Source of the DNA: Akkermansiaceae bacterium
GTDB taxonomy: Bacteria; Verrucomicrobiota; Verrucomicrobiia; Verrucomicrobiales; Akkermansiaceae
DNA length: 34,682 nucleotides
Assembly: GCA_903827375.1 (NCBI GenBank)
Contig: CAIKHZ010000306.1
Span: forward strand, 1-34,682
Direction of reading: 5' to 3'
Part shown: positions 1,552 to 31,017 of the stretch, piece by piece
Layout: each line of letters starts with the position of its first letter
How positions within the stretch are numbered: position 1 is the stretch's first letter
Made by a program: the position numbers and the translations under genes
Notes under the pieces: model-generated
Database searches by the model: none
Told to the model about the DNA's origin: nothing
Seen by the model: the letters and a program-made list of their open reading frames with translations, nothing else

Positions 1552-3987
1552 TCAAGGGGCCCGCGTGGTGCTTGGCGCAACGGCGCGTTTTGCACGGCGC
1601 AGCAGCAATTCGTAGCGCTTTTCCAGGGTTTCGGCGTGATCTGCATCGCCGGCAGTCCGATAGAAGCCGCACATCATTTTGTAGATTTCCACTTCGGTGG
1701 TGGCGCGGAACCAATTGGTGCTGCCGGTTTCCACGACCCGTTTGAAGGCCCGCTCGATATCGTGGGCCGCTTTGAGTGCCAGCTCCGGATCATCCTTGCA
1801 ATAGCCGAAATAATCTTGAGCCATCATTTTGAAGCCGGTGATGCTTCCGCCGTAGTCGCGCAGTGCCCGCTCATAGAGGTTGCCGATGTCGCGTTTCGCA
1901 TTGGGGCCGCCGCGTTGCATGATCAATTCCGCCTCGCGTTTGAGCGACGTGGCGATCAAATCCTTCTGCTCGCCCGCGTCGTGCTCGATTTTCCAGCGAT
2001 CACGCAGAAATGCGTGTTTGGCCTCTCCCTCCGTTCCGTAGGGAAAGACAAACTGCGATTCGGCAGTGGCGGCGAGTTGTGCCATCCGTGGGTTTTTTTT
2101 GAATTCGCGCCGCAAATCCAGCACGAACTTTTTCCAGTCAGCTAGGTTGTTAGGTACTGCTGGGTCGCCGGTGATGGTCGTTTGGCGGCTCATCAGGGCA
2201 AACAATGCTTGCCAGGTTTCGACGAAGGAATGGCCGATGCGATTGGCGAGGTGGACGGTGGCGGCGTGGTCCACGGGCATGTTGCTGGCGGCGAAAAAGT
2301 CCGCCAACCAGAAATGCCGCCAGACGGCGATGAAGGTGGCATGGGTTTTGTGAGATCGATCATTCCACAACTGGATTTCCTGTTCGCTGGTGGGCTCACC
2401 GGTTTGGGGATTTCCGGCGATGCCGTTGGAAGCGCCGCTGATGCGGCCGACTCCGGTGAACCACTGGTCGGGATCGGCTTTGATGCCAGCCCAGGCATGG
2501 CCGCCGAGATTGGTTTCGCCGCCGATGGTCATGGCGGGGATTCCTTGAGCGCGGGCGGTGTTGACGCAGAAATACGATTGGTCGCCGCAGATGCCACCCC
2601 ATTTGAGGATCTCGGCGAACGAGTATTCCTTGTAGGGGTTGTAACCATCGACGGCGCGTTTCATGAGATATTTGATCATCCCGTATGCGTTGCCCCAGCT
2701 TTTCCGGTTGAGGCGCATTTTTTCAAGTGACCATTCGAGTTCTGACGTGGGGACAGGAGCGCAAACCACCCAGATGAGGTCGCGGGCGCTTGACTTGTGG
2801 ACCGGGGCTGCCAGTTTGCATTTTTCGTCCTTTTCGACGTACCAGAGGTAGCGCTTGACGGGATCGACCGCAGATTCGGAAGCAGCCCCTGATTTGCCCG
2901 TCACCTGGGAAACTCCCATGGGTTTGTCAAAGACCACGGCACAGGCAACCGCCAACGAAAAGAATTTTTCATAATTTTTCTCATTGAGCGGCCACACGTC
3001 CATCAGGAACTTGAGCACCTTGCCGCAATCATTCTTGGGATGGAGGGTGACCAGCAATTCCTCCATCGCCTGGTTGTGGTGCAGCAGCCAGGAGAACATC
3101 CCCGCCGTGTAATGATCCGTCACTAGGCGGGTGATTTCGGATTCGGAAAACCAGCCGAGCGTCCTCCAGCGGAGGATCGCTTGATAGAGAACCGGTTCCT
3201 TCCATACGGCGTCGAAGCGGCTCAAGTCTCGCCCCTGAGGGATGCCTGCGAGGGCGGCATGGATGGATCGGGCGAGCAGGCTGCGATAGGCGCTCCATGC
3301 CTTGCCATCAGTCGCGAGGTCGAGAAGCTCACTATCGCGGCGGAGCGCCGCCTCGCGCTGCGAGTCCATGCCAGTGAGAAGCAGCACTGGTTCGGCGGCC
3401 AGGCGCTCCGCCTCGCTGGGTTTGGCTTTGGCGATGACCTTGTCCGGTTCGGGTACTTTCGCAGGGGGCGGTGGGGAAAGCGGGACTGCCGGAGGCACGA
3501 CCTTGGGTGCTTTGGCTGGAGCCCGTGCCACGACTGGCGGCTTGGGCGTCGCAGTCGGCGGGGGAGGGGGCTGCGGTGCCGGGCTGGCGGCAGGAGGTGC
3601 CGGAGGTGGCGCGGGTGTGATTACGTCCAAGACTTCGATGCAAATGAAAAACGCTGCCACGGCGAGGGCACCGACCCAAAAGGCGCTGCGGACGCTCTTC
3701 AGAGTGGGGTTACGGAATGCCCGGATCAAGCGCGCCTTGTGTTTGCCAACTGGCATGGGCAGGGGAGCAGCTGGTGATGGCGGACCGCTTCCCGGGATTT
3801 GGCCGTCGGCAGGCGGCTTTTCGGGTTGGTGAGCCTGGGCTGCCTCTAGCCGAGGGCGGACAACCGAGGACGTCGGATTGCGGTGAAGGGGGGCGGCGGA
3901 ACCCTTGGGAATCAGCCCGTCAGCCCCGGCTGGCTGGCCCGATGCTGCCGGTTGGACTGAAAAATTGCGTTTCGACGTTGGCTTCAT
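1552..3987 (-). CDS. Membrane-anchored transglutaminase-like cysteine protein
   Basis: An 811-aa protein. Residues 1-100 are basic and Pro-rich and probably cytoplasmic. Residues 101-123 form one hydrophobic segment, followed by a Pro/Ala-rich spacer (about 124-190) and a large domain expected outside the membrane. In that domain GGICGDQS (Cys467) and, 30 residues on, GGHAW (His497) followed by ADPD (Asp505 or Asp507) match the Cys-His-Asp arrangement of the transglutaminase/protease-like core. Proteins of this fold make or break amide bonds, so a role in cross-linking or trimming envelope proteins is possible, but no substrate is evident. The C-terminal 250 residues are helical and look like a degenerate repeat region. 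The start is supported by AAGGGG 7 nt upstream of ATG. It diverges from the PEP-CTERM gene. Confidence 0.65.
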   Translation of the reverse strand: MKPTSKRNFSVQPAASGQPAGADGLIPKGSAAPLHRNPTSSVVRPRLEAAQAHQPEKPPADGQIPGSGPPSPAAPLPMPVGKHKARLIRAFRNPTLKSVRSAFWVGALAVAAFFICIEVLDVITPAPPPAPPAASPAPQPPPPPTATPKPPVVARAPAKAPKVVPPAVPLSPPPPAKVPEPDKVIAKAKPSEAERLAAEPVLLLTGMDSQREAALRRDSELLDLATDGKAWSAYRSLLARSIHAALAGIPQGRDLSRFDAVWKEPVLYQAILRWRTLGWFSESEITRLVTDHYTAGMFSWLLHHNQAMEELLVTLHPKNDCGKVLKFLMDVWPLNEKNYEKFFSLAVACAVVFDKPMGVSQVTGKSGAASESAVDPVKRYLWYVEKDEKCKLAAPVHKSSARDLIWVVCAPVPTSELEWSLEKMRLNRKSWGNAYGMIKYLMKRAVDGYNPYKEYSFAEILKWGGICGDQSYFCVNTARAQGIPAMTIGGETNLGGHAWAGIKADPDQWFTGVGRISGASNGIAGNPQTGEPTSEQEIQLWNDRSHKTHATFIAVWRHFWLADFFAASNMPVDHAATVHLANRIGHSFVETWQALFALMSRQTTITGDPAVPNNLADWKKFVLDLRREFKKNPRMAQLAATAESQFVFPYGTEGEAKHAFLRDRWKIEHDAGEQKDLIATSLKREAELIMQRGGPNAKRDIGNLYERALRDYGGSITGFKMMAQDYFGYCKDDPELALKAAHDIERAFKRVVETGSTNWFRATTEVEIYKMMCGFYRTAGDADHAETLEKRYELLLRRAKRAVAPSTTRAP

Positions 3988-7122: not shown

Positions 7123-8238
7123 ATGGAACCAACCACCACAGCTTACGGCACATGGAGCGGCGGCCGCTTCATGCACTTCGGAGAAACCCTCAGCGAGGAG
7201 CGCTTCTGCGGATGCATCAGCACGGCCTACGAGGCTGGCCTGCGCACCTTCGTCAGTGCTGACGTTTACGGCAACGGCAAGGCGGACGAATTGCTCGGCG
7301 TGGCCCTTCAGGGTGTGCCCCGCGATACATACTGCCTGGTTGGTATGATTGGCCATGATTTTTACCAAGGTCAGCGGGAGGGTAGCCGCGGATACCCGCG
7401 TTTCACTGACGAGTCCTTGCGCGGAGTTGAGGATTACGCGGGGTATGTGCGGATGGCGACGGATCGCTCGTTGGAACGCTGCGGAACCGATCATTTCGAT
7501 GTGCTGATGCTGCATAACCCGGACAACACTGGATTTACCAGCGAAGCGGTGTGGCAGGCCATGAGAGCGGTGAAGGACGAAGGTCTGACCACGCAACTGG
7601 GAATCGCCCCGGGTCCGGCCAATGGCTTCACCCTGGACCTCCTTGCGTGCTACGAGAATTTCGGTGAACTCATTGACTGGGCGATGCTGATATTGAATCC
7701 ACTGGAGCCGTGGCCGGTGGGCCTGACGTTGCCGGCTTGCGAGCGCCACGGGGTGAAAGTGCTCACGCGGGTGGTGGACTACGGTGGCGTTTTTCACGGC
7801 GATCTGAGTGCCAGCCATGAATTCAGGCCTGGCGATCACCGCACGTTCCGGCCCGAAGGTTGGGTCGCAGGAGCCCTGGCAAAGGTCGAACGGATGCGGC
7901 CTTTCGCTGATAAGCACGGGCTGACGTTGTTGGAATTTGCTTCGATTTGGAACCTCAGTCATCCCGCTGTGGCCAGCGTGGTGCCTACATTTATGCAGGA
8001 AAGCGGTGCTGCTGCCCGCCCAATCGAAGGGAAAATCCGCGAGTTTGCCCGCCTGCCCGACCTCCGCCTCAGCCCTGAGGAAGTGGAAGCCGTGCGGCTT
8101 ATCGGCGACAATACCGGATGCATGACCCTGAAGGGGGCCAGCCATCGCCACCTCACCAGTGAGCGGCCCGACGAATGGCCAATGCGCCAGGAATTGCTGG
8201 ATCTGGCCGCCCGCCAGGGGCTCGGATCCGAATGGTGA
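7123..8238 (+). CDS. Aldo/keto reductase homologue with altered catalytic residues
   Basis: A 371-aa cytoplasmic protein with the aldo/keto reductase layout: FVSADVYGNGKADELLG (residues 43-59), DHFDVLMLHNPD (123-134) and a GIAPGPANG block. Aligned with the family, Tyr49 and His131 of the catalytic tetrad are present. The usual Asp (FDTA..Y) is Val44, and the usual Lys (ATKVG) is Met75 in LVGMIG. Classical NADPH-dependent carbonyl reduction through Asp-Tyr-Lys-His is therefore doubtful. The protein may be a redox-inactive binder, a sugar epimerase/dehydratase-like relative, or an enzyme of different chemistry. The C-terminal 60 residues go beyond the usual barrel end. The gene stands alone, 234 nt after the previous one, and is followed by tandem hairpins. 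Confidence 0.75.
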   Translation: MEPTTTAYGTWSGGRFMHFGETLSEERFCGCISTAYEAGLRTFVSADVYGNGKADELLGVALQGVPRDTYCLVGMIGHDFYQGQREGSRGYPRFTDESLRGVEDYAGYVRMATDRSLERCGTDHFDVLMLHNPDNTGFTSEAVWQAMRAVKDEGLTTQLGIAPGPANGFTLDLLACYENFGELIDWAMLILNPLEPWPVGLTLPACERHGVKVLTRVVDYGGVFHGDLSASHEFRPGDHRTFRPEGWVAGALAKVERMRPFADKHGLTLLEFASIWNLSHPAVASVVPTFMQESGAAARPIEGKIREFARLPDLRLSPEEVEAVRLIGDNTGCMTLKGASHRHLTSERPDEWPMRQELLDLAARQGLGSEW

Positions 8239-8248
8239 TGGACTCGGC

Positions 8249-8297
8249 GTCCCCGCAAGGGGGCTCTCGGTTGCAAACTACCAGTTTTGGTAGTTTG
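8249..8297 (+). terminator. Tandem hairpins after the aldo/keto reductase gene
   Basis: Two stems follow the stop at 8238. The first, 8249-8264, has a 6-bp stem (including one G-T pair) closed by a GCAA tetraloop, with CCCC pairing with GGGG. The second, 8274-8297, is a perfect 10-bp stem (CAAACTACCA / TGGTAGTTTG) around GTTT. Neither has a long U-tract. They probably end or protect the transcript. Confidence 0.55.
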
Positions 8298-8578
8298 GGA
8301 CGGAATGAAGTCACTGCGGACTTCCGGAAGAGAACTGCAAGTATCGGATCCTGTGGATTCCGCAGTTTGCATTTCTTGTCGAACGAATTATTTTCAGTCT
8401 TCGCGGATTGATCAGTCATTTCGCAATTTGAGCATTGCGAAAGCCGCCTTATTGATCAGAATCCGTTGACAACGTTGGCCTTTGCGGTTCTGGTTTTTGC
8501 GTGAGTCGTCCTCCTTTCATTGGTGGCTCACCCATGATCAGTGTAGAGGTTTTTCGCAGTGATCTTTAACTAAAACCC
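8298..8578 (+). other. Intergenic leader upstream of cassette protein A
   Basis: This stretch, with the hairpins before it, makes a 340-nt gap without a convincing gene. It is more A/T-rich than the surroundings, as expected for a promoter region of the cassette protein A gene. A TTGACA hexamer occurs at 8466-8471, but I see no good -10 partner at 17-18 nt. Short frames crossing it have no coding character. Confidence 0.4.
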
Positions 8579-11500
8579 ATGCCAGCATCCCATCGGCTCA
8601 CCATTGCACCCCCGCTTCCGGCAACTGGAGCCGGCCGCGGCTTCGCGCTGGTGATTACTCTCGCCTTGATGGTCCTCCTCACGCTGCTGGTGGTCGGATT
8701 GCTCGGGCTCTCCGCCATTTCCCTGCGCAGCTCCCGCCAAGCCCAGGATCTGGCTGTGGCTCAATCCAATGCCCGCTTGGCCATGATGCTCGCCCTTGGC
8801 GAAATTCAGACGGCACTCGGCCCGGATAAACGAGTATCGGCAGACGCCTCCGCCGTGATTGCCACCGCCAAGCAAGCCCACTTGACCGGTGCATGGGATT
8901 CATGGCGCTGGGATCCCGCCAAATCCTCGGCCCCAGCCTACGGCGAAAAAGGCGCGAAATTCCGCCGCTGGCTGGTATCCACCGCCGATCCCGCCTCGGC
9001 GAAAAATTTTGGGTTGCCAGCGGCCGATTCCGTCGGCGAGGGGGTTGAGTTGGTTGGCACGCTGAGCAACCGGGGTGTAGCCAACTCGGTGCGGGCCGCC
9101 ACCATCGCCATCAGTGAGCCCAAGCGAACTGGGGGTGCCGCTTGGGCGGTTTTCGATGAAAGCGCGAAGGCTGCCATCGACATGGGAGATCCCGCTAAAG
9201 CGCCTGTCCTCGGTGAGGAAGTCGCCTCCCGCAACGCGCCTAACCGGTTTCGTGCAGACTCCGTAGATCCGCTCAAGCTTGCCAGTCTGAAAGCCCCTAA
9301 AAACCTGGTCACCCTGGAAACTGCGGTGATTCCCGCCGGCCCGACCAAGGCTCCGGAATTACGCAAACGCTTCCACGACTTCACCACTGCCTCGCTTGGA
9401 TTGCTCACCGACACCGCCAATGGCGGCCTCAAGACGGACCTCACATCGCTGTTTGAGGCACCGTCATTTCCCAGCGCCTCGTTTCCCTCTCTAACACTCT
9501 ACTCCAGCCCATCGACGGCGGCTCCGCGCTGGAGCTATCTGTACGATCACTACCGCAAGTACAAGGCCGTGACCACGGCCTCTGCCACCGCTGGCACCCC
9601 CATCTACACTCCGAGTGTGGCCGAGCTTGCGGTCACGTCCACTGGCATCGACCCGTCGCCGCAAAAGGAGCGCCTCTTGCCGGTCATCGCCAAGATGCAG
9701 ATTGTTTTCTCAATTGCTTCGCACCACGCCCACATCACCGACCGGGTGGCATTTATGGACACCCAGGGCGTGCCGAAGGGCAACTCGCAGCATGCCGTGC
9801 CGCACTTTGTTTACGAGCCGGTCGTTACCCTGTTCAATCCCTACGACGTGGAGCTCGACCTCAGGAAATTGCGCATTCGCATCTGGGACCCGCCCGTCGG
9901 CGTGCGCTTCGCTAAAATCAGTCAGGAAAAGGGCATTGGCTGGTATCGGCCTGATGCCTCTGGCGGCGGCGAATTCCAAGGCTTGGCCCGCTTGAACATC
10001 GCCAACGAGCACAACCCATCCGCTCGAAGGTCATACACGCTCATTCTAAGCGACGGCACCAGTGAGGCAGCAGCCTCCAGCTTGCACCTGCAACCGGGCG
10101 AGGTTAAAGTCTTCTCCAGCCGTGTGGAAAACGCTTGGTGCTGGGGGTTCGAGTGCGCCAATATGTGGGCACCACGCTCGTTCTTCGACTGGAACGCCGG
10201 CACTGACTTCGGCAATATCGATAACCGCACGGCCAATCGCATGGGCGTCGAGGCCGTGCCCGGTTGGGACCTGCGTGCCGGGATCCAAACCGACCACATG
10301 AGCTACAGCGACGCGCGTCCGGCGGCCACCCTTTATGATTTTGAACGATTGCCTGGTGGCCCCGGCGGTGGTTTCGTTTCGATCCGAATCACTGATGAGA
10401 TCCAGATTGACATGCAGCCGCAGCGGGCTACCGGGAGTGACACCACGGTGCCGGACTTTCAGGTGGATGTGCTTGCCGGAAACACTGAGGACGTGACCAA
10501 GGATATTTTGCGCTCCTATCGCTTCCGCTTCGCCAATCCCGTCGCCGAAATCAGCCAAAATCCAAAAAGCCCCATCATCAGCCGCAAGTTTCGGGTCTCG
10601 CAAACCCTTCAGGAATGGAACGATAAGAGCGTTGGTGGCAAAAAGCCCATCGCGATGTTGGAAATGACCGCCCACACCACCCACGACCCTCTCGACGATA
10701 GCAAAGCATGGATCTATAACAACCCGGTGATGGAAGGTGCCGAGCAGAAATCCGCCATCGTCGGTGCCGCAAATCAAAGCTATGATGTTCGATTGATTGA
10801 GCTCACCGGTTGGTCGAGTTTTCCGATCATCGAGTGGGATGCGACGAAGGGGCCCGGCTTCGGCCGCGGCTATTTTGGCGCGAGCCGTAGCTCGAGTGAA
10901 GGGGTGACGAACGTGCCGATGGTCCGTGTGCCAGTGGCACCGGCGGCGTCCCTCGGCGATCTCATCCCCACCAATCTAGTCGCCAGTTCGCTGCTGCCGC
11001 GTGTCGTCCACCCGTTTGGCAATTCCCGGGCACATCCCTTGCTGCCAGCCGGCCAAGTCTCTCGAGCTCTCGATAATGCCATGGCCCTCGACCATTCGTA
11101 CTACCTCAACGACACACTCTGGGACCGCTATTATTTTTCATCCGTGGCAGCCTACTCCAATGGCGTGCTCACCGCCAAACGCAGCCGCCATGACGTCCTC
11201 GAAGGTATCCTCGACGGCACTCAACCAGCCCTCAACACCCGCCTCCGACCTGCCGTTACCCCCGGCGATGCAGCCCAGCTCGCCACCCAAATCGATGGCT
11301 GGAATGATACCGATCGCTCTAAAAAGCTTGCCAGCCAGCTGGCCGTGAGTGGTCCGTTCAATCTCAACTCAACCTCTGTCGATGCCTGGCGTGCGGTGTT
11401 AGCTTCGTTGCGAGACCGCGCTGTCAACGCCTGGAAAAACCGCCCAACCCTCAACCCGGATGCCACCCCCTTCGTCCGCATGGCCCTGCCGCTCACCGGT

Positions 11501-12148
11501 GCCAATGACACCAGCGCCAACGTCAATGTCCTTGGCCAAATTCGCTGGGCCGGTTACCGCAGCCTCACAGACTATCAGATCGAAACCCTTGCCACTGCCA
11601 TTGTGGTGGAAATCAAGAAGCGCGGAGCCGAGGACAAGGCCCCGCCTTTGACCCTAGCAGAATTCATCAACCGGCGTCCCGGCTCTGCCGACGGCCTGCA
11701 TTGTCTCGCAGGCATTTTGCAGACAGCCATCGACAAATCGGGTGTCAACACCGCCAATCATGCCATGGACTCCAAGCTCATTGACGTCGCCAATATCGCC
11801 AGTTCCCGCAAGCTCGGTGCCGTCAATCTCACCGCAATGAACGGTTTTACCGGCGAAGGTTCACCTCCCATTCTCACCCAAGGGGACCTGTTAACCGGCT
11901 TGGCTCCCATCGCCACAGTGCGCGGCGATACCTTCAAAATCCGTGCTTACGGAGAAGCTACTAACAGTGCGGGTGTGATCCAAGCCCGTGCATGGTGCGA
12001 GGCCGTGGTTCAGCGACTGCCCGAGTTTGTAGATTCTGCCGATGCCCCGGAAACGGCCACCACCAGCCTTAGCCGCCCCATGAACCAAGCCTTCGGCCGC
12101 CGCTTCCGAATCGTTGCCTTTCGCTGGCTCAACCCCAAGGAATTTTAA
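8579..12148 (+). CDS. Verru_Chthon cassette protein A family (copy 1)
   Basis: A 1189-aa protein. Gly21 followed by FALVITLALMVLL begins a roughly 25-residue hydrophobic helix that resembles the prepilin-type leader of GspK/PilX-like minor pseudopilins. A family block follows (NARLAMMLALGEIQTALGPD, residues 65-83). The long remainder is expected outside the cytoplasm. The C-terminal third has DDT/GDTFKIRAYGEA and ARAWCEA blocks and ends in FRWLNPKEF, matching the second copy at 20338-23964 throughout. The TIGRFAM family is known from multi-gene cassettes in Verrucomicrobium and Chthoniobacter; its function is not established. The usual short pilin-like cassette members (B, C, D) are not present here; instead a secreted protein lies 6 nt downstream. 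The start ATG is preceded by AAAACCC rather than a Shine-Dalgarno. Confidence 0.85.
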   Translation: MPASHRLTIAPPLPATGAGRGFALVITLALMVLLTLLVVGLLGLSAISLRSSRQAQDLAVAQSNARLAMMLALGEIQTALGPDKRVSADASAVIATAKQAHLTGAWDSWRWDPAKSSAPAYGEKGAKFRRWLVSTADPASAKNFGLPAADSVGEGVELVGTLSNRGVANSVRAATIAISEPKRTGGAAWAVFDESAKAAIDMGDPAKAPVLGEEVASRNAPNRFRADSVDPLKLASLKAPKNLVTLETAVIPAGPTKAPELRKRFHDFTTASLGLLTDTANGGLKTDLTSLFEAPSFPSASFPSLTLYSSPSTAAPRWSYLYDHYRKYKAVTTASATAGTPIYTPSVAELAVTSTGIDPSPQKERLLPVIAKMQIVFSIASHHAHITDRVAFMDTQGVPKGNSQHAVPHFVYEPVVTLFNPYDVELDLRKLRIRIWDPPVGVRFAKISQEKGIGWYRPDASGGGEFQGLARLNIANEHNPSARRSYTLILSDGTSEAAASSLHLQPGEVKVFSSRVENAWCWGFECANMWAPRSFFDWNAGTDFGNIDNRTANRMGVEAVPGWDLRAGIQTDHMSYSDARPAATLYDFERLPGGPGGGFVSIRITDEIQIDMQPQRATGSDTTVPDFQVDVLAGNTEDVTKDILRSYRFRFANPVAEISQNPKSPIISRKFRVSQTLQEWNDKSVGGKKPIAMLEMTAHTTHDPLDDSKAWIYNNPVMEGAEQKSAIVGAANQSYDVRLIELTGWSSFPIIEWDATKGPGFGRGYFGASRSSSEGVTNVPMVRVPVAPAASLGDLIPTNLVASSLLPRVVHPFGNSRAHPLLPAGQVSRALDNAMALDHSYYLNDTLWDRYYFSSVAAYSNGVLTAKRSRHDVLEGILDGTQPALNTRLRPAVTPGDAAQLATQIDGWNDTDRSKKLASQLAVSGPFNLNSTSVDAWRAVLASLRDRAVNAWKNRPTLNPDATPFVRMALPLTGANDTSANVNVLGQIRWAGYRSLTDYQIETLATAIVVEIKKRGAEDKAPPLTLAEFINRRPGSADGLHCLAGILQTAIDKSGVNTANHAMDSKLIDVANIASSRKLGAVNLTAMNGFTGEGSPPILTQGDLLTGLAPIATVRGDTFKIRAYGEATNSAGVIQARAWCEAVVQRLPEFVDSADAPETATTSLSRPMNQAFGRRFRIVAFRWLNPKEF

Positions 12149-12154
12149 TATCAC

Positions 12155-13006
12155 ATGACCCACCGAGCCCTGCTTTTTATCGTTCCCGCCGTCCTCGCCT
12201 CCCTGCTCCAGCCAGCCGCAGCCCAAGAAAAATCCTCGTTCCAAGCCGAAATCCGCTTGCTCGCCTTCCAGCCCGACCAGGCGGTTGACGAGGCCTACGC
12301 CCACGATCCCGCAGTGCCCGAGCCAGCCGCAGCTACGGCCCTTGGCATCAAAGTGCCAGTCAAAAGCTATCTGAATCACGAGTTCTCCATCGTGCGTTTG
12401 ACTGGACAGCGAATCGTTCTGACGACTCAGGCGGAGCACGCTTCGCTCACCCGTCCTGATGAATTATTGGGTGAGGTTGCGTTGCCGGAGGGAGTTCGAT
12501 CCGCGATCCTGCTGTGCCTGCCGGCGGCCGTTGGTGAGAAGGCCCGCTTCCGGATTCTGGCCATCGACGACTCGAAGCGAGCCTTTCCTGCGGGCACCTT
12601 TCGCGTTTCTAACCTAAGCCCGCAACCCGTTCGGATTGTGCTTGAGGAAAAGACCTATCAATTTAATCCAGGTGAAATCAAGCTCATCACGGATCCGCCG
12701 GTGCGTGCGGGCAACCAATCCGGCATGAAGGCCTTCGCTTTTCACGACAACATCTGGCAACGCATCGGCTCGGGCATCTGGCCCCATCCCGGCCAAAACC
12801 GCGTCGTGCAAGTCCTCTTCACCAACCCCTCAACCGGTCAAGTCCAACTCCGCGCCTACGATGACGTCCCACCCCGCGACCCTGCTGCACCTGTGCGTCC
12901 CACTCCGCCAGCCCAGACAGCGCCGCCTGTGAAGACCCCGCCGCCTGGTAAGACCCCGCCGCCTGTGAAGACAGCCCCTCCGTCCACACGGGCTGCCAAG
13001 GGCTGA
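12155..13006 (+). CDS. Secreted partner of cassette protein A (copy 1), unnamed family
   Basis: A 283-aa protein with a Sec signal peptide (MTHRALLFIVPAV..., cleavage near AAAQ). I recognise no named domain. Residues about 65-230 read as a beta-rich domain and align block by block with the product of 19628-20335: a PV/PL segment before the first strand (SYLNHEFSIVRL), a strand ending in LCLP, the block FPAGTFRVSNLSPQPVRIV followed by NPGE, and a late VVQVLFTNPS strand. The C-terminus is an Ala/Pro/Lys tail with three repeats of PPxKTP type, probably an unstructured spacer or wall-contact segment. The 6-nt gap to protein A suggests co-transcription and translational coupling. It converges with xseA, with 2 nt between stops. 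Confidence 0.7.
   Translation: MTHRALLFIVPAVLASLLQPAAAQEKSSFQAEIRLLAFQPDQAVDEAYAHDPAVPEPAAATALGIKVPVKSYLNHEFSIVRLTGQRIVLTTQAEHASLTRPDELLGEVALPEGVRSAILLCLPAAVGEKARFRILAIDDSKRAFPAGTFRVSNLSPQPVRIVLEEKTYQFNPGEIKLITDPPVRAGNQSGMKAFAFHDNIWQRIGSGIWPHPGQNRVVQVLFTNPSTGQVQLRAYDDVPPRDPAAPVRPTPPAQTAPPVKTPPPGKTPPPVKTAPPSTRAAKG
12923..12976 (+). repeat. Three 18-bp tandem repeats coding a Pro/Lys tail
   Basis: Three consecutive 18-nt units (12923-12940, 12941-12958, 12959-12976) of the form CCGCCTGTGAAGACCCCG with a few changes encode a repeated PP(V/G)KTP motif. Such repeats can vary in number between strains by slippage. Confidence 0.75.
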
Positions 13007-13008
13007 GC

Positions 13009-14442
13009 CTAGCGACCCTCGGCGTCCATCACCCGGCTTGCGACTTGCCCGTCGGCAAATTTTGTGCGCAACACGTCACCGGGCCGAAGTGCTGCAACCG
13101 ATCGGGCGATCCGGCCGTCCGGGCCTAGGGTGATGGAAAACCCGCGTTGGAAAGTTGACTCCGGTCCGAGGGTTCGCAGCAGACCCCGTTGATGCACGAG
13201 TCGTTCGTGGTGACGCTGCAGGGCTACTTGGGCGAGTCGCTCGAGACGCTGGCGCTGGTTGGCAAGGGATTCGAAGCGGCGTTCGAGCACGCGTGCCGGG
13301 TGTTGAGACCGATGGCGGAGTCGCAGTTCGTTGAGGCGAATCGTGAAAGATTCGAGATTTCCGCGCAGAGATTGGGTTAGGGCGGCGCGCAGGGAATCAA
13401 CCCGCTGCATCGGCTCGCGCATGAGTTTTTCCCCGTCGCGTTGAAGTACGCCGCGCTTGAGGCCGTCGAGCAGCGCTTGCGCCCGAGCCACGCGTTCAGC
13501 CATCATCCGGGCCAGACGACGGCGGGTTTGCACCAGGCGCGCCTGCAATTCCGCCCCATCCGGCACCGCCAACTCTGCAGCAGCACTGGGGGTGGGTGCC
13601 CTTAGGTCGGCCACAAAGTCGGCTATCGTGAAGTCGATTTCATGGCCCACCGCTGAAATGACCGGCAGCGGACAAGCTGCAATCGCCCGCGCCACAATCT
13701 CCTCGTTGAAACACCACAAGTCTTCTAGCGAACCGCCGCCGCGTCCGACAATCAAGAGGTCACAGCGTGGATACCCAAACGACTCAGCACGGCCCAATTT
13801 GTCGATGGCTGCCGCAATCTCCCGTTCCGCGCCTCGCCCCTGAACCCGCACCGGCAGTAGCACCGGTTGCACCCATGGCGCGCGGCGCTGCAAAATGTTG
13901 AGAATGTCGCGAATCGCCGCACCCGTGTCCGACGTGACAATGCCGATAACCCTGGGAAATGTCGGCAGCGGCCGCTTGCTCGACGTCTCAAACAATCCCT
14001 CAGCTTGCAATTTGCGTTTGAGCGCCTCGAATCGAGCCTGCAAGTCGCCAACACCGGCCGGCTCCGCTCTCAGCACAATGAGCTGCAACTGGCAGCGCGC
14101 TTCATAGACGCTGGCCTCGGCAAACACTCGCACTTGGGCACCATCCCGCAGTGAGGCGGCCCCCGGTCGTTTGGCGGCTCCAAACATCGCGCATTGAATT
14201 TGCGCTCCTTCGTCCTTCAGCGAAAAGTACCAGTGGCCGCTGCCTTGTTTTTTCAAATTAGAGACTTCCCCCTCGACCCACAGTTCACCCACCTTGGATT
14301 CCAGAGCATGCTTCATTTGTCGAAGCAATTGCGTCACACTCAGCGCCTTGGGCGCGCTCGGTTGGGGAGGAGAAAACAGGTCCACGCCCGAAACTTCGCA
14401 GACCCTCAGCAAAGATCGAGTCGGAAATTTCGGCGACCTCAC
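13009..14442 (-). CDS. xseA: Exodeoxyribonuclease VII large subunit
   Basis: A 477-aa cytoplasmic nuclease subunit. With the small subunit XseB it degrades single-stranded DNA to oligonucleotides. An N-terminal OB-fold (about 33-130, with LWVEGEVSNLKKQGSGHWYFSLKD) is followed by the catalytic domain with VIGIVTSDTGAAIRDIL (165-181), VGRGGGSLEDLW (232-243) and AVGHEIDFTIADFVADLRAPTPSAAAEL, all family hallmarks. A coiled-coil region follows, then a C-terminal RGFSI block. The first 20 residues are unusual, and a GTG at residue 20 could be the true start. No xseB candidate lies next to it. Confidence 0.93.
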   Translation of the reverse strand: MRSPKFPTRSLLRVCEVSGVDLFSPPQPSAPKALSVTQLLRQMKHALESKVGELWVEGEVSNLKKQGSGHWYFSLKDEGAQIQCAMFGAAKRPGAASLRDGAQVRVFAEASVYEARCQLQLIVLRAEPAGVGDLQARFEALKRKLQAEGLFETSSKRPLPTFPRVIGIVTSDTGAAIRDILNILQRRAPWVQPVLLPVRVQGRGAEREIAAAIDKLGRAESFGYPRCDLLIVGRGGGSLEDLWCFNEEIVARAIAACPLPVISAVGHEIDFTIADFVADLRAPTPSAAAELAVPDGAELQARLVQTRRRLARMMAERVARAQALLDGLKRGVLQRDGEKLMREPMQRVDSLRAALTQSLRGNLESFTIRLNELRLRHRSQHPARVLERRFESLANQRQRLERLAQVALQRHHERLVHQRGLLRTLGPESTFQRGFSITLGPDGRIARSVAALRPGDVLRTKFADGQVASRVMDAEGR

Positions 14443-18106: not shown

Positions 18107-18595
18107 TCAGTCTGAGTCGCCAGTGCCCGTGCCAGCAGGGAAGCGTTTGCGGAAGAGCATGTAGGCGACGAGGCCGACCACAGCGATGTTAGCAAGCAGC
18201 GCCAGCATCATGCCCCAAGAGATTTTGAGGTAAAGTTCGTAAATCTCAATGGGCAGATAGATCGTGCCGCTCACCAGCGCCAGCCATTCCGCCCAAGCTC
18301 GCTCTTTCCACAAGCCATAGCCCTCGATAAAACGAAATAGCGCGTAAATGAGCGCCAAACCCGCAAAAAACCACAGATTGCCGTCCGTGATGTGGTCCGT
18401 CAAATCGATGAATATCTTCGGATATTTCCCAGCGGGATCCAGATTGACGCGGGAGATGAATTCCTCGGCGATGCGGTGGGCGTCTTTGTGCAGGAGTCCG
18501 AGCAGCCCACAGCCCACGGCGAGCACCAAACCGCCCTTGACCGCCTCGAACATGGCCACTGCGCGCAGGCTCTTGAGCAAATATCTCGAACTCAT
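18107..18595 (-). CDS. DUF2127 family integral membrane protein
   Basis: A 162-aa protein with four hydrophobic helices (about residues 14-36, 72-92, 100-118 and 126-150). The N-terminal LRAVAMFEAVKGGLVL block and the middle RFIEGYGLWKERAWAEWLA block are typical of DUF2127 (PF09900), a small membrane family of unknown function. No strong Shine-Dalgarno is visible upstream of the start. Confidence 0.78.
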   Translation of the reverse strand: MSSRYLLKSLRAVAMFEAVKGGLVLAVGCGLLGLLHKDAHRIAEEFISRVNLDPAGKYPKIFIDLTDHITDGNLWFFAGLALIYALFRFIEGYGLWKERAWAEWLALVSGTIYLPIEIYELYLKISWGMMLALLANIAVVGLVAYMLFRKRFPAGTGTGDSD

Positions 18596-18956: not shown

Positions 18957-19445
18957 CTATCTGCCCCTGTCGCCGCCGTATACCTGCCATTTTCGCACAG
19001 AGCTCCACCAACCGGCGTTAACCACTGCCAATTGCACCACCGCTACCACCAAGCCAAGCAGAACTTGTTGCAACCAGGATGTCGGTAACTCGCCGAGCAC
19101 GATGAGCCAGATCAGTAAGACCACAAGCATACCGTGGAGCGTGGCAGTGGTGATCCACACCCTCTTCCCCGTTTTGATATCCTGTCTGAAAAATGCGCTG
19201 AGGTAAGCCACCCCCATCCCGCCATCCAGTACGGCACAGATCCAAGGCGATATCACAGCCAATCCTGCCGGTATGTGTGACATTATCGGCTTCAGAATCG
19301 GCAATCTTCCTGGCGAAACCCTCATCCACACCAGCAGCAGCGCCACCAACAGGTGGATCAGTCCAATCAGGAAGTTCCACGTTCTAACAAATCTAACTTT
19401 GATGCGGATTGCCCTTTCATTCTCGGCAGAGTGATCTCTTCTCAT
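18957..19445 (-). CDS. Hypothetical four-helix membrane protein
   Basis: A 162-aa protein I do not recognise. A basic N-terminus (about 18 residues) precedes four hydrophobic segments at about residues 20-42, 60-87, 96-120 and 125-147, and a short basic tail. This suggests a small inner-membrane protein with both ends in the cytoplasm. The start lacks a clear Shine-Dalgarno (AAAACATG). It lies between the five-gene minus-strand run and the DUF2127 gene, 182 nt after the former, so it probably has its own promoter. Confidence 0.6.
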   Translation of the reverse strand: MRRDHSAENERAIRIKVRFVRTWNFLIGLIHLLVALLLVWMRVSPGRLPILKPIMSHIPAGLAVISPWICAVLDGGMGVAYLSAFFRQDIKTGKRVWITTATLHGMLVVLLIWLIVLGELPTSWLQQVLLGLVVAVVQLAVVNAGWWSSVRKWQVYGGDRGR

Positions 19446-23999: not shown

Positions 24000-26900
24000 T
24001 CATGGCATGGTGACTTTGGCTCGAAGGAATCCTTTGCCTGCCAGTCCGCTGGATCCTTCCAGACTGAAGCTGCGGTATTCGTAGCCGGCACCGGCAGCGG
24101 GCAAACCTGTGGTGACAGGGGAGGGGAGTGCATTGACCTTTACCGGGTAGCTGTTCAAAGTGCTGCTGCCTTCGACGATGTAGGTGATGCCGTCCCAGGA
24201 TGCCGTCGGTGAGGGGTCTCCGCTGAAGTTGGGCGTGTGGATTCGAACCGCGATGGTTAGTATCAGCTTTCGGCCGGTTCCGTCATTGCTGTCAGCCGTG
24301 AATTCGAACAACTTGCCATGGTCCATGCCCTTGAGCGGGTCGCCGTTGAAAGCGAATTCGTAGAGGTTGGAGCAACCGTCGTTGTCGGGGTCCTGGCCCG
24401 GGTCGTTGTTTTCAGCGGTGAGTTTGCCGCTGGTCCATGCTGCGTAGGGATTGGCTAACGATACTGTGCCATTGGCGTGAACCACAAGCGGCACAGTTAT
24501 GTCTGCGGACCCGCTGGAAATAACCGGTGCCAGATCGTTGATGACGATGCTGTGGCTCGTGTCTGCCGACAGCCCGGTCACTTGAACGGATGTTGCGAAA
24601 TCCGCTGGCCACGGGCTGGTTAATGCGGCGAGTTGGCTGGACAGATCGATGTGCAGCACGGAACCTATCCATGAGACGTTGGTGCACCAAAGACCGTTGA
24701 CTCCCACGCCCGACGGCTTGCCGGCATCGACGTAACAGCCGTTCATCAAGCGGTCGGCGTTAGCTAGGCCGGTGAAAATGGCAGAGCATTCGCCCCACGA
24801 TGGATGGCTGCGGATGGCGGATTGGTTGTGGCCTTCATGATTGATATTTTCCGGGCCCAGGCCGGTGCCGTAGAGATTTGGATGGGCATAGATCTCATTG
24901 GCGATGTGCAAGGGATGGTTGATCAACACGGCACCGGAGCGTGCGGCGGCCACGCCCCGTTCCAATAAATCCTTGCGTCCCAACGTCTGTCCGTACCAAA
25001 GGAAGGACTTCACCGTCTCGCACTGGCGGGCATCCAGGGATGTCGCAGTATCGACGTTGTCCGCCGTAAATCCGCCAAACGGAAAGGCGGTATAGACATA
25101 TTGATGATGCCAACAAGCTTGAGAAAAAGAAAGGTAATCCACCACTTGCTCGCCGGTCGTTAGGTATTGGCTTGCGCCGGTTGCCCGGTAGAGGGAAGCA
25201 AATCCTTCGGCTGCCCAGATTGTGGAGAGGTTGCCCTTCACCGCAAGTCCTTGAGTCGGATCGCTGGTGAACGTCAGCGGATTCTGACCGTCGGAGAAAT
25301 ACGGTTCCAAATCCATCCAGAGTTGTTGTGGAACCACGTTTTGGGTGAGATAGCCCGCGATCTTTTGCGCAGCAGTCAGATAGGCGGGAGTGTGGGTCAC
25401 CGAAAACATTTCGGCCAGAAACCACATGCTGGCGGCCGACTGGGCATTGATGGGGAATGGGTCGTTAGCAACCATGGCAGGCGTGTAGTAGGAAGGAATC
25501 CGCCCGTTGGCGTCGATGATTGCAGCCAACCACCCGGCGTAGGGCGTTAGATAGGTGATGATGCGGCTGTCCTGCTCGCATTGCTTGTAATACTCGATCA
25601 TGTGGGCCGCAGTCTTGCTCATGGCCGGCACGTCATAAGTGTCGTTGTTTTTGGAAAACAGACTGTGGGCACCGGAGCTCACGCAGCCGCGCAGCCACTG
25701 CCGCGACGTCGCCAGATAGGTGAGACAGAAGAGCCCGTTGTCGTTCCGAGGCGCTTGCAGCGCCAAATTGATGATGTTTCTGGCTCGCGTCGTCATGTCC
25801 GGCATGCCGAGTTTTTGCCCCCAGTAATACATGCCGCTGGCATCCCGTACCGGGTTCCAGAACTCGAAATTCCACAGCGCGTCACCGAATCCCAGAACCC
25901 CCAGCGGTGCGACCATGCCGCAGACCGGCTGATTGTTCATCGTGAAATCGAGAAAGACCCCATGATCGGGGAAGCCGGGCACGGGTGCTTGGACGCTTGG
26001 CGGCATCGGCTGGGACACAACCCCATACACCAGCTTCACATATTCCTCGAAGGGCAGGGCCAGATGGGCCCGGGATTGGAACAACGGCTCGCCATACTTT
26101 TGCCATAGGTGACGGCTGGCTTTTTGATAGCCCAGGTTTGAGGGTTCCTGAGCCCCGAGGAGCAGGTCGAAGCCGTAGGCAATTGTGTTAGAGTTGAGAG
26201 CTCGGACCATCGATGAGTCGTTCTGTCGCTGATAGTGCATGTGGTGACTGACGATGAAATCCATCATGCCGTAGGAAAAAACCGGCTTGGCGGTTAGGCC
26301 CGAGGTGATGTTGAGGTCAAGCGCGGTGGGCATTGAGAATTTATCCGCCTCGGCCGGGATATCATAAATCGTGGCACCCACGTTCTGGGTTCGACGCGCA
26401 TCGGGCGAGAGGATTTTGTCACAATTGATGCTGTCCAAGTCCGGCACCATTGCGACGAAAAGTCCGCCGTCCTGCAAGACCACCGCAGGCGAATGAAAGG
26501 CGGTATCGCCGATGACTTGGTTGGCGGCGGGCGTGTTGCCCCAGCGAGTCTCGTCCTTCTTCACGGTGGGTGAGTGAACGAAGGCAGGTGCTCCGTCGTG
26601 ATTGAACAGATATGACGACATGCAATAGTCCAGCGAGTTCGCAGGCAGCACGGCGACGGTTCTCACATGGAAATAGCGGGTGCCGACATCGAGTTCCATC
26701 GTCTCGGTGATTTGCGCGCCCTGATGGGTGCCGGTCACCTGAATGACCACACGGGTCGGGCTGGCCGAGGTGATGGTGTATTGGCTCGCCGTCATTTCAT
26801 GGACCCGGTAACGCTTGGTATCCACGGCGGAATTGAAAAGCGGGTTACCGCCAGGATGGGCTGTGAAATCCGGAACAAACGAGGAACAGACCTGCTGCCA

Positions 26901-27914
26901 CTGAGCCGCCGCATCGGTCGCTGAAAACGTCTTCGTGAGGGTCCCGTTCAAACGCGTTAGATCCAGACTGACCAACCCGTTGTCCACGTGGAGCGACTGC
27001 CCGTCGTCCCGAACCACGAGGTTGCTAGATAGAGGAGTTACCTTGACGTGATAGGTGGTCGATGAACCATCGTGGCCGGTCACAACATAATCCTGAGGCG
27101 TGGTGAAGTCCCGGCTGCTGGCGGAAACCGGGTCGGCGGTGGCCAGCGGGGACAGCGTGAAGGTAGGGGCGAGATTTGCTAACCCGGTGCCTTCCGGCAC
27201 GCATATCGCAATGTCGGTTCCCGTGATCGTCGCAGCGCCCAAGGAACCGAACGTGAACGTCAGAATGGCGCTGGCCGGAGCTGGCTCGGTTACCGTTAGC
27301 CGCGCATGGTCAATGCCGCCACGAGTTGCCTGGCCCGCGCCCGCTGGTTTCGCCTCCAGCCAGATCCACAACGGCAATCCGTTATCTGCCGACTGTGCGG
27401 TGTAACTGAATTTGAAAGCATCGGCAATGGCGATGCCCGCAGCCACGCTCTCCACCGTCTGTGAGGCATACGTTTTTGCTGGCGTTGCGCTGCCCTCGTT
27501 GACGAATTTGGCCGTCGCGCCCCAAGCAAGGTTGACTCCCCGGCCGCCAAAAGCATCGGCGGCAAAGGTATAGGTTTCCCCGCCGACCATTGAGCCCAGA
27601 TTTTGCACGATCAAGCCGACATTGGTCGGATTCTGGTCTCCAACATCATTGACCAATCGCAAAACACGAGAGCCGTCGGCGGTGCCAGCGGTTCCCTCCT
27701 GGCCCGTCGGCATGCTGGATGCCTGAATATTGAGACCCGATAGGTTGGTCCATCCACTTGCTTCGTAGAGCCCGCCCAATGCACTGCTATAAAGCGCTCC
27801 AGTGCTTTCAAAACTGCCGTTGGTCAATGCCACTGAGGCATGGGCAGCGGCACTTCCGCAGAGGCATGCGACAAGGTAGCAGGCAAGAGAATTCTTAGGG
27901 TGTCGAGTGGTCAT
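24000..27914 (-). CDS. Large exported protein with DUF5018-like and probable alpha/alpha-toroid glycosidase-like domains
   Basis: A 1304-aa protein. The signal peptide (about 1-26) ends at AAAHAS. Residues about 28-210 form a jelly-roll-like module (NGSFESTG..., GGETYTFAAD) of the kind used for carbohydrate binding. Residues 217-293 are a DUF5018-like Ig domain (DFTTPQDYVVTGHDGSSTTYHV). Residues about 300-620 are beta-rich, and about 630-1060 are helical with repeated Trp/Tyr-rich hairpins (NFEFWNPVRDASGMYYWGQ, a GNLSTIWAAEGFASLYR block). This pattern suggests an alpha/alpha-toroid as in many polysaccharide lyases and hydrolases. No catalytic residues can be assigned. The end has an Asp/Asn-rich loop (DPDNDGCSNLYEFAFNGDP) and a terminal beta domain. 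The start has AAACCC before ATG and no Shine-Dalgarno. Confidence 0.65.
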   Translation of the reverse strand: MTTRHPKNSLACYLVACLCGSAAAHASVALTNGSFESTGALYSSALGGLYEASGWTNLSGLNIQASSMPTGQEGTAGTADGSRVLRLVNDVGDQNPTNVGLIVQNLGSMVGGETYTFAADAFGGRGVNLAWGATAKFVNEGSATPAKTYASQTVESVAAGIAIADAFKFSYTAQSADNGLPLWIWLEAKPAGAGQATRGGIDHARLTVTEPAPASAILTFTFGSLGAATITGTDIAICVPEGTGLANLAPTFTLSPLATADPVSASSRDFTTPQDYVVTGHDGSSTTYHVKVTPLSSNLVVRDDGQSLHVDNGLVSLDLTRLNGTLTKTFSATDAAAQWQQVCSSFVPDFTAHPGGNPLFNSAVDTKRYRVHEMTASQYTITSASPTRVVIQVTGTHQGAQITETMELDVGTRYFHVRTVAVLPANSLDYCMSSYLFNHDGAPAFVHSPTVKKDETRWGNTPAANQVIGDTAFHSPAVVLQDGGLFVAMVPDLDSINCDKILSPDARRTQNVGATIYDIPAEADKFSMPTALDLNITSGLTAKPVFSYGMMDFIVSHHMHYQRQNDSSMVRALNSNTIAYGFDLLLGAQEPSNLGYQKASRHLWQKYGEPLFQSRAHLALPFEEYVKLVYGVVSQPMPPSVQAPVPGFPDHGVFLDFTMNNQPVCGMVAPLGVLGFGDALWNFEFWNPVRDASGMYYWGQKLGMPDMTTRARNIINLALQAPRNDNGLFCLTYLATSRQWLRGCVSSGAHSLFSKNNDTYDVPAMSKTAAHMIEYYKQCEQDSRIITYLTPYAGWLAAIIDANGRIPSYYTPAMVANDPFPINAQSAASMWFLAEMFSVTHTPAYLTAAQKIAGYLTQNVVPQQLWMDLEPYFSDGQNPLTFTSDPTQGLAVKGNLSTIWAAEGFASLYRATGASQYLTTGEQVVDYLSFSQACWHHQYVYTAFPFGGFTADNVDTATSLDARQCETVKSFLWYGQTLGRKDLLERGVAAARSGAVLINHPLHIANEIYAHPNLYGTGLGPENINHEGHNQSAIRSHPSWGECSAIFTGLANADRLMNGCYVDAGKPSGVGVNGLWCTNVSWIGSVLHIDLSSQLAALTSPWPADFATSVQVTGLSADTSHSIVINDLAPVISSGSADITVPLVVHANGTVSLANPYAAWTSGKLTAENNDPGQDPDNDGCSNLYEFAFNGDPLKGMDHGKLFEFTADSNDGTGRKLILTIAVRIHTPNFSGDPSPTASWDGITYIVEGSSTLNSYPVKVNALPSPVTTGLPAAGAGYEYRSFSLEGSSGLAGKGFLRAKVTMP
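27036..27266 (-). repeat. DUF5018-like module, copy in the toroid protein
   Basis: About 231 nt coding a DUF5018-like Ig domain. A closely similar stretch at 34369-34602 lies in the peroxidase-like gene of the same operon. Both encode a YVVTGHDGSSTTYHV core, preceded by (V/A)P..(T/S)F/YTL.PLATA. The similarity is visible at the nucleotide level, which suggests a fairly recent duplication or gene conversion. Confidence 0.75.
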
Positions 27915-27938: not shown

Positions 27939-30900
27939 TTAGCGTTCCAGGTGTCTTCCGCCGACGCGGAAGAACCGTTGTCCGGCTGTGCCAAGTGGCA
28001 GTTCCACAATATTCATTGGAGGCGTGGCCAAAATGCTGTTAGATGCTTCAACCCAATTCACCAGATCGCTGCTGGCAGAGATCGTGTAAACGCACTTTTC
28101 GGCGCTTTTCCACTGGATTCGCAGGCGATCAGGCGCTAGGAGGTCAAAGGATAGTATCTTCATGCAGGAATTGGCGTCGGTCGGGTCTGTGCCACTCACA
28201 TACTCGTCCATATTGCAGACACCATCGCCGTCCCAATCCTCGAAGGGGCCGCCGCCGGGCACATTTGTCCCGCCAAAGTACTTGATTTCCCAGCTATCAG
28301 CCATGCCGTTTCCATTCAGGTCTATCAAGGATTGTGTATCAAAAGCGCCTGTAAGATGGGAGGAGGCGAGCCCCAGCGCATTGGTGGCGAAAACCCGGTA
28401 GTAGTAAACCTGGCCTGGGACCAACCCGCCAAGGGTGGACATGAAGGCGCCGGGTCCGGACGATCCGACGACCTGCGAGTGTTGCCAGAGATTTGGGACA
28501 TCCCCCGCATCGGTCGTTCCCCACCCGATCCGCACGTCGGCCGGTTGATTGCCTGCTGAATATATCACCGAGCCATTGATGTTAGCAGACACGCCATCAA
28601 CGCCAGTGGGAACCCCGTTGGCAACCGCCAATAGCGGCTGGGAATCGTAAACCTTGCCGCCGGCAGCCACTGCCGCCCGGTTCATCATCTCGCGGTTCAG
28701 CCGGTCTTGGTATTTGTTCTCCCGCCAGATATCCATCGCGCATTGAAGCGTGGAGTTAGGCATGTCTTCGCGCGGCATCGCGGCGAGGGCGGCCTGGCCC
28801 TTTTGAATGATCGCCAATGCCTGCGTGTAGTTCGCGCCAGTGACACCGCTCAGGCACGGGCTTTTCTCTGGCCGGTCGAATGATATCTGTTCGCCAAGGC
28901 TCTTGACGCTGTCGGCGTCGTTGACGTTTTTGCTGGTGAACCCAGTGATCTGGCTCAACTGGCTGAAGGTCAGTGGCGAACGCCCGCCAGCATTGTCGGG
29001 GTAGTTAGAAGCGTAGCTTGGATAATAGACGGCGTTTAGATCGACCCATGTGACGATCCGGTCAAACTCCTCCGCGGTAAGCGTCACGCGTGCGGCGTGC
29101 GTTCCAAGGATCGTCTGAACCAGCCTGCTGGCGTGAGAGCCCCAACTCTTGGCCTGTTGGATAGCCGCCGGGCCAGCGCCGATGGCACCGGTGTAGCCCT
29201 TGCGCCAGAGTTCGGCGTAGGAGGCATTGAAGCAGACGCCCTTGTCGCCGGCGAGCACCACCTTTGCAGCGCCCGTGCCACCGTAGTCGTGACACTTCAC
29301 GCATTTCGCGTCGAAAACCGGCTGCACATCTGTGAGGTAGTTGAACATTTTTGGCGGCTGCCCCTGCCATCCTTGGAGGGTGTCTGGGGTTCGCTGGAAG
29401 GCGCTCGGCATGAGTGAACCGGTAAAATGGGGAGCCAGTCCGCGATTTTCATGGCAGCCGATGCAGCCCTGGCTTTCGCCGGCTTGAAAGATTGTGCCGG
29501 AGCGCATGGACTGAATCATCATGCCGTTAGCGTCCAGCAATTGGAAGAAGACGAAGCGATTTGCCGGCACCATGAAGTTAGCCGATCCATCCGGATCCAC
29601 CGGCACCGTGCCAAGGATGCGCTTGGTTTCAAAGCTGTCCCAGTTGACGCCGGGTGCCTCAATTCCTTGGGCACTCCAGACTTGGCTGCTGTAGTAGCGT
29701 TTTTCCGGGGATTCCACCACGCGCAGGTACTTCACATCGCCCCGCGCCACGCCAGCCATGTGTGTGCTCTTGTAAACATCCATGATATATACACGGCTGT
29801 CAGAATTATCGTACTTGCGCGGCACGGTCACCGTGTTAGGGCGAGGATGCGCCGCCAGCGGCATGGGATCGAAACAGCCCACGCTGCCGCTTCCCTCGTC
29901 GTAAACCGGGGTTTCGCTGCCGTTTTGCGCATCGAGCAGATAGATCGCCATGTGTTCGCCAACCACCTGTCGAGAGCAAAGGAAATAGCGCCCTCCCACA
30001 CCGGTGGCCGGCTCAACCAAGGGATACGGATCCTCGTGTTTCGGGCTGGTGCTGCCAAAGATATCAAAGTCATAGTTGACGTAGTTGTTCACACGAACCC
30101 AGCTCTCAAGTCCTGTTGGCCATGTTTGCAGCACTGCACCCGGCCCATCAAATGCCAGGCGGTGATCGAGCAGCGCGATCGCGCCCCAGGGGCGGTCATG
30201 ACAGGCGACGAAGTTGACGACGACGTAGGGCGTGCCTGGCACGGCATGTCCATCGACGACACCGCCCGGGCTGCTGGTATTATTGCCATAATACACGGTG
30301 TGCCCGGTGCCTTCCGGGTCCACTGTCCACAATCCTTGTGCGTCGCCGAAGTCCCGGTCCACGTATTCCCACCGATAGTAGAGGATCCGCCCATCCGGCA
30401 TCAGGCTGGGGTGCCCTTCAAAAAGAGTGCTCTTGCCGATTTGCACCACGTTGGCCCCATCAGCTTCCATGCGATACAAGTTATGGGATAAGTGCTTGTT
30501 GCACATCACATACTTCGGCTCGCGACCGGAGACGAATGCGATGCGGTCATCCGCCAGATAGATCGGGTCGAAATCATCCACCCCTGCCAGAGTCGTCAAT
30601 TGCTTGAGCCCGCTGCCATCCACATGGATCTCCCAGATATGATAGCTTTCGGCGGTGCTTTTTCGCCATGCGAACACGACCCGTTGGCCGGAGAAATGAA
30701 CGTCGGGGTCGCGAATCACGCCGTCAGGTCCAGCGTCGAGCAGAGTTTGGACGGCACCTGTTGCGGGGTCGAGAATCTTGAGAGCCGCGCTGCCGCCGGT
30801 GTAGGCCCCGTTGTTGTACTCATTAGGCGCAGAGGGAAACATCGTGTGGGTATTGTGGTGGTCAGGGAGGTATTGTTTGCGCAGCACAAACAGAATCGGC

Positions 30901-30983: not shown

Positions 30984-31017
30984 GACAGAGCCACAACGAT
31001 AGGCATCGCGCGGATTT

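Follow-up and report, generated by a model that had tools for sequence, protein, structure and literature searches.

Giant GspK-like proteins and exported all-beta partners form a co-inherited gene pair in Akkermansiaceae and related bacteria

We analyzed a 34,682-nucleotide (nt) stretch of an Akkermansiaceae bacterium genome (assembly GCA_903827375.1, contig CAIKHZ010000306.1; hereafter, the window) that carries two copies of a gene pair encoding a giant protein, A, and a smaller exported partner, P. The A-P pair is real, widespread and co-inherited, and it has no curated family scoring above its cut-off. We propose that the A proteins are paralogous, perhaps interchangeable filament-tip subunits, each with its cognate P, a reading to which we assign a probability of roughly 0.55. 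The first pair lies on the forward strand and comprises A1 (8579-12148; 1189 amino acids (aa), stop codon TAA), a predicted giant GspK-like minor pseudopilin judging from its open reading frame (ORF), its modelled structure and its Protein Data Bank neighbours GspK/XcpX, and P1 (12155-13006; 283 aa), recognized from its ORF, structure model and fold search, whose ATG is 6 nt behind A1. The second pair, on the reverse strand, comprises the GspK-like A2 (23964-20338; 1208 aa, stop codon TGA) and P2 (20335-19628; 235 aa), whose ATG is 2 nt behind the A2 stop; these coordinates confirm the two tightly spaced, oppositely oriented pairs described in an earlier, sequence-only reading of the window. 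A1 and A2 share 29% identity, and P1 and P2 share 19% (12-row alignment).

Searching the 6.1-Mb assembly with A1 revealed 16 intact A paralogues and one internally deleted relic on contig C249 (L030:7049-7599) that retains its two ends alone, and a homologous P lies directly downstream of 11 of the 16 intact genes. Most own-genome matches to P1 and P2 lie behind other A paralogues, and three further P matches stand on C159 (no A upstream) and at the contig ends of C169 and C157. Two A paralogues that look very similar by eye, on C45 (L023) and C27 (L025), include one with a P and one without. Across 39 genomes (this one and 38 relatives), P was found in 26 and A matches in 31, three of which (G027, G031 and G035) had A matches at E 6e-6 to 9e-8 only. 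Among the 150 P and 150 A matches listed for these genomes, 109 of the 150 P genes sit 2-357 nt behind a listed A on the same strand. We inspected 17 of the remaining 41: six were directly behind an A, two were the second P of an A-P-P arrangement (one in G018:C1), one was upstream of an A, one was behind a degenerate A, three were beside an A relic (G001:C67), three were orphans and one was at a contig end.

A survey of named records extended this picture to Haloferula, Luteolibacter, Rubritalea, Roseibacillus, Cerasicoccus and many metagenome-assembled genomes. Of at least 537 confirmed stretches we took the 80 best. Counting A genes of at least 400 aa and dropping shorter fragments, a P lies directly behind 77 of 87 A genes there, with gaps of -11 to 81 nt; a simple script predicted the genes in these loci, so that some calls may be wrong. 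The other ten A genes comprise four at contig ends, one fragment of a broken A and five real absences, in one of which (L098) a P lies upstream on the other strand. Arrays of the form A-P-A-P-A-P occur in L100 and L109, and A-P-P was also seen. In a phylum-wide sample of 145 genomes, in most of which no more than 19 P and 5 A candidates were scored and copy numbers are therefore lower bounds, A was found in 41 (a few at weak E values of 1e-5 to 1e-9) and P in 21, all of which had a strong A match. The conserved A-partner unit that the sequence-only reading had put forward is thus upheld, and the finding that it had said would count against it, partner homologues lying mostly away from A, is the reverse of what these surveys show.

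The two genes have also diverged in step. Pairwise distances among A proteins correlate with those among their P proteins (Mantel test, 88 pairs: r = 0.926, a value reached in 0 of 2000 permutations), and the nearest neighbours of A and P agree in 44 of the 88 pairs. Within the genome itself, the 11 paralogous pairs gave r = 0.916 (permutation fraction 0.0002 of 5000), a correlation to which species history cannot contribute because all pairs come from one genome. The correlated distances indicate that the A-P pair duplicates and diverges as a unit, and this co-inheritance strongly suggests, from sequence, that P binds A. Own-genome paralogues are 28-33% identical to A1 and 17-23% identical to P1, and the A1-P1 relatives in Haloferula and Luteolibacter records reach 46-50% (A) and 33-42% (P). 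It could be argued that the pair is merely an expanded, mostly redundant or degenerating paralogous family whose linkage stems from tandem duplication and not from joint function, and relics do occur: the internally deleted A genes on C249 and in G001:C67 and the broken A in L101. However, the paralogues are still paired and keep open reading frames despite having diverged so far, and the relatives of A1 and P1 persist in Haloferula and Luteolibacter; we consider this explanation, already disfavoured, very improbable.

The structure predicted for A1 from a 74-row alignment (predicted local distance difference test (pLDDT) score 90.8, predicted template modelling score 0.90) has a long N-terminal helix (residues 24-80) and a compact head. 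When VIA-align was applied to the Foldseek candidates for this model, the top four chains all came from GspK/XcpX entries (Z 9.5-10.0; 218/261, 215/259, 234/280 and 247/295 residues aligned), the K-subunit identity of chains 6utu_C and 9a1f_T being inferred from their length, and the next, unrelated match scored Z 4.0; for models without a clear Foldseek match, Z below 8 can be chance. The prepilin site of A1, with cleavage expected between G21 and FALVI, and the N-terminal helix to residue 80 are encoded at 8639-8818 (+). No glutamate is present at +5 of this site (Glu5) in A1, in any of the 65 of 77 A relatives that could be examined (the remainder were truncated or deviated from the pattern) or in the genome's own GspK. 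The site, the hydrophobic helix and the absence of Glu5 agree with what is expected of GspK, with A a predicted substrate for prepilin cleavage. From the top matches and the prepilin site without Glu5, A appears to be a GspK fold with about 900 extra residues, and the model supports well its assignment as a giant GspK-type protein, about four times the normal size. Its anchor thus resembles the GspK/PilX-like one that the sequence-only reading had recognized.

The extra mass includes a beta-rich region at approximately residues 365-750 (9671-10828, +), apparently inserted relative to GspK, with approximate limits and separate weak beta-sandwich matches (Z 2-4). The C-terminal region (residues 898-1189; 11270-12145, +) carries the conserved motifs FNxNSTSxxAW, PFLSxxEFVNRR, DTFxIRxYGEA and FGRRFxxxxFRWL, and it holds 39 of 74 invariant columns in a 16-row alignment and 18 of 33 in the 74-row alignment. 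A and GspK thus share the prepilin N-terminus without Glu5, most of a recognizable GspK fold and, by eye, an F-N-x-N motif; they differ in that A has about 1200 aa against about 300, an extra beta-rich head, a partner P and 16 copies beside an ordinary-sized GspK, and lacks H, I and J genes beside A1 or A2. Sequence searches of solved structures with the A and P family profiles gave no match to E 10.

The name given to A in the sequence-only reading, Verru_Chthon cassette protein A, has to be given up. A1 and A2 score 19.8 and 19.3 bits against TIGR02600, whose cut-off is 332.3, and the matches span the first 58-59 of its 1296 positions only; the genome has 15 TIGR02600 matches, none over the cut-off. 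Members over the cut-off occur in 12 of the 39 genomes, and strong A matches occur in just two of those (G022 and G028); a search for P found nothing in the ten genomes with true TIGR02600 members and no strong A match. True members adjoin prepilins of the B, C and D kinds in six of nine loci viewed. No B, C or D prepilin gene was seen in the window, in line with the earlier description. Among window ORFs of at least 60 aa, the prepilin-start pattern with Glu5 had a single match (18107-18595), an ORF that lacks Gly where cleavage would occur; a looser K-type pattern without Glu5 matched A1, A2 and the ORFs at 3302-3832 and 18957-19445, which look unlike prepilins by eye; and NCBIfam scans of 16 window proteins found no prepilin family besides the weak A matches.

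The two kinds of giant protein are nonetheless alike in size, in a GspK-like N-terminal helix, in belonging to the same order of bacteria and in being multi-copy in some genomes. Profile comparison with hhalign aligned their N-terminal 71 columns confidently (97%), whereas the C-terminal and middle regions matched weakly (E 0.0024, probability 12%, and E 1.3e-4, probability 54%, respectively), and for this reason we do not claim common descent beyond the helix. By these comparisons A is best placed in a separate giant GspK-like family, at most a sister kind to Verru_Chthon A. Among open-licence PMC papers, we found no mention of 'Verru_Chthon' and nothing joining GspK, pseudopilin and Verrucomicrobiota. 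At L127:6461-12682 (-), a single open frame runs through a PEP-CTERM-like, repeat-rich protein (named by eye) and into a true Verru_Chthon A; in L126 two such genes are neighbouring yet separate.

P1 has an N-terminal signal (by eye), an all-beta part at about residues 28-241 (model pLDDT 90.7) and a proline-rich tail. A hydrophobic N-terminus is present in 73 of 77 P proteins and a lipobox-like site in six, in keeping with the soluble, beta-rich exported partner proposed earlier. In fold, the P1 model comes closest to the PepT2 extracellular region, which we take to be two Ig-like domains (E 2.3e-7 in Foldseek; 179 residues aligned at Z 12.5); further, single-domain matches to AlgF, transthyretin and a cytolysin C-terminal domain cover residues 141-241 only. 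The C-terminal and N-terminal domains of AlgF align with P at Z 8.6 and 6.5, respectively. Identity to PepT2 and AlgF is 8-13%, and a common fold is no proof of function. P1 had no match in Pfam or NCBIfam at E 1, and P2 had one Pfam match at 12.7 bits (cut-off 29.7).

These properties bear on what P does. Two-domain Ig-like chaperones serve pilus subunits, and P might likewise stay in the cell as a periplasmic chaperone devoted to its own A, whose large head it would fold or protect; A itself would act as we propose. The size of P (mostly 220-290 aa), its signal-like start, beta-sandwich folds and cognate inheritance, together with the unusually large A heads, would suit such a role. Known pilus chaperones are missing from the structural matches listed for P, which is not decisive: no PapD-type two-domain chaperone chain is among those listed for P1, and this does not exclude such a fold. 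Moreover, ten A genes across two surveys have no P behind them, and we regard the chaperone role as unlikely, if the strongest of the competing explanations. Alternatively, each A could be a receptor-tip that secretes its own P as cargo, which would then work outside the cell; a receptor-cargo pair would account just as well for the export signal, the gene order and the co-inheritance. However, no enzyme with a similar fold was prominent among the matches of P, and the presumed carrier is much larger than P; we view this reading as improbable.

The genome encodes a secretion machine that the A proteins could share. A type II secretion locus on C96 (L184:441-9633) has the order G-H-I-J-K-L-M-D, in which G, H, K and D were identified by profile and the rest by position and prepilin motif. 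GspG scored over its cut-off, and GspH, GspK and GspD (E 1.5e-78) scored below their curated cut-offs; this GspK has 312 aa and matched NF037980 at E 5e-18 (65.6 bits, cut-off 130). The search for prepilin peptidase genes yielded one, on C159, and four GspF-type genes are present in the genome. The presence of an ordinary-sized GspK at C96 implies that the A proteins are extra GspK-like proteins and not the K of the only system. Two more giant GspK-like proteins of 1219 and 978 aa lie beside prepilins in this genome, at L186:8318-11977 (C225) and L187:3202-6138 (C68); the former has a weak N-terminal match to the A profile.

In type IV pilus minor-pilin operons, PilX and PilY1 provide a precedent in which a GspK-type minor pilin is encoded beside an exported non-pilin tip partner. 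A-P resembles PilX-PilY1 by description, although P is small and all-beta and PilY1 is large. The minor pseudopilins are described as forming the tip, with XcpX (GspK) on top, and the tip as critical for substrate binding (PMC6211770). We propose that A is an oversized GspK-type minor pseudopilin that its prepilin helix would anchor in the inner membrane. Prepilin peptidase would cut it, and it would cap a pseudopilus assembled by a type II secretion or type IV pilus-like machine that the A proteins share, with specificity residing in the large head that ordinary GspK lacks. P would enter the periplasm via its own signal peptide, bind the head of its own A and then either ride out on the tip or keep the head ready for assembly. 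With its many A-P paralogues, the machine would have a range of tips to choose from, suited to different cargo or surface ligands. We infer the tip position, the A-P binding, the sharing of one machine and whatever the tips carry or bind, and a secretion or surface-fibre tip complex, suggested by the earlier reading, is a fitting role on the same footing. Many pseudopilin copies in Verrucomicrobiota have a parallel, by description, in Verruconatronum alginivorum, for which 67 pseudopilins, there described as PulG-like, are reported, and a type II system that according to the authors could export alginate lyases (PMC13274419). The unnamed, multi-copy A-P pair belongs to a phylum with poorly known secretion and surface biology that includes gut Akkermansia. 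If our proposal is correct, the specificity of a type II-like machine could be changed by tip swap, and the 16 natural variants of this single genome would allow what minor pseudopilins recognize to be addressed by comparative experiment.

Several observations weigh against tips with cognate partners. GspK ranked first in the Foldseek search with the A1 model at E = 0.12, the NCBIfam GspK model NF037980 gave the A proteins 10.9 and 9.7 bits (cut-off 130), and no GspH-, GspI- or GspJ-like genes were found beside A1 or A2. Five of the 16 A genes in the genome have no P behind them; by eye, the next gene is another secreted protein on C256 and C180, nothing clear on C343 and C45, and on C342 a short ORF unlike P that resembles a transposase piece. 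Five full-length A genes in the named loci likewise have no P behind, and at least four P genes have no A (C159, G013:C16, G006:C23 and G018:C12). In the phylum sample, 20 genomes have A only, and 12 of these are from one genus of the same family, presumably Akkermansia to judge by its inverted-repeat motif, without a profile-visible P. From the A genes without P and the P genes without A, it follows that P is either not strictly needed or able to act away from its A. Neighbouring genes likewise gave little: we compared 82 of 107 same-strand neighbours within 350 nt with 69 background genes (of 80 drawn from 360), leaving out by hand short ORFs, A and P genes and a helix-turn-helix-like ORF behind the C342 A, and found PATR in 9 neighbours and 3 background genes (p = 0.23) and sulfatases in 8 and 2 (p = 0.11), both weak differences.

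In Akkermansia-like genomes, the N-terminal part of A apparently sits in an invertible segment, judging from differences between genomes. One site, which by eye neighbours pyrG and a sodium:solute symporter, has a single A N-terminal part between two facing C-terminal parts. L193, L199 and L201 have it joined to the symporter-side C-terminal part, and L191 and L200 to the opposite one, the joined A of L200 being split over two frames. The second site adjoins genes that look pst-like by eye; L192 has an intact A there, and in L204 the gene is split and its N-terminal part reversed. The segment of about 1.2 kb holds the N-terminal 315-322 codons of A and is found in either orientation, depending on the genome. 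A 13-bp inverted repeat, ACGGATTCTAAAT, bounds it in both loci tested, L202 and L204, and this repeat or a near variant lies at the junction in other Akkermansia-like loci. CGGATT, reported as the motif of Akkermansia invertons (PMC13343947), occurs within the repeat. L191 and L199 also carry long near-identical inverted repeats, of 2965 bp (100%) and 3092 bp (99.6%), respectively. L202 and L203 have the flanks of the two sites swapped, a pattern that a large inversion would leave. A broader scheme, which we offer tentatively and consider rather doubtful as a whole, would give Verrucomicrobiota one shared pseudopilus machine served by a library of giant, interchangeable tips, each a GspK-type head with its Ig-like partner, whose N-terminal assembly module in Akkermansia-like relatives is flipped by DNA inversion, switching a tip off or joining it to another head. 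As a lead only, a 270-aa secreted protein near the Akkermansia-like A aligns with P (hhalign E 6e-4, probability 28%, 183 columns; E 0.007 and 6% with the profiles exchanged).

The same neighbour test was used to look for a common 'cargo' family; this candidate was rejected, there being no clear enrichment except of subtilases behind P (5/42 against 0/69 background genes, p = 0.007). The genes directly behind P in L051, L071, L077, L093 and L106 have similar C-termini by eye; the five subtilases are probably these, of one orthologous lineage. A scan of 8200-13200 for promoters and terminators found signals no more often than in shuffled sequence. In the window, a 1304-aa protein with a signal-like start (by eye) is encoded 35 nt upstream of A2 (24000-27914, -); scans against Pfam (E 1e-5) and NCBIfam (E 1e-3) assigned it to no family, and it is a possible cargo or operon member. 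Upstream of it on the same strand are two large genes (27939-34671, -) that match cytochrome c and beta-propeller families, the nearer of which also matches the HZS-alpha middle domain.

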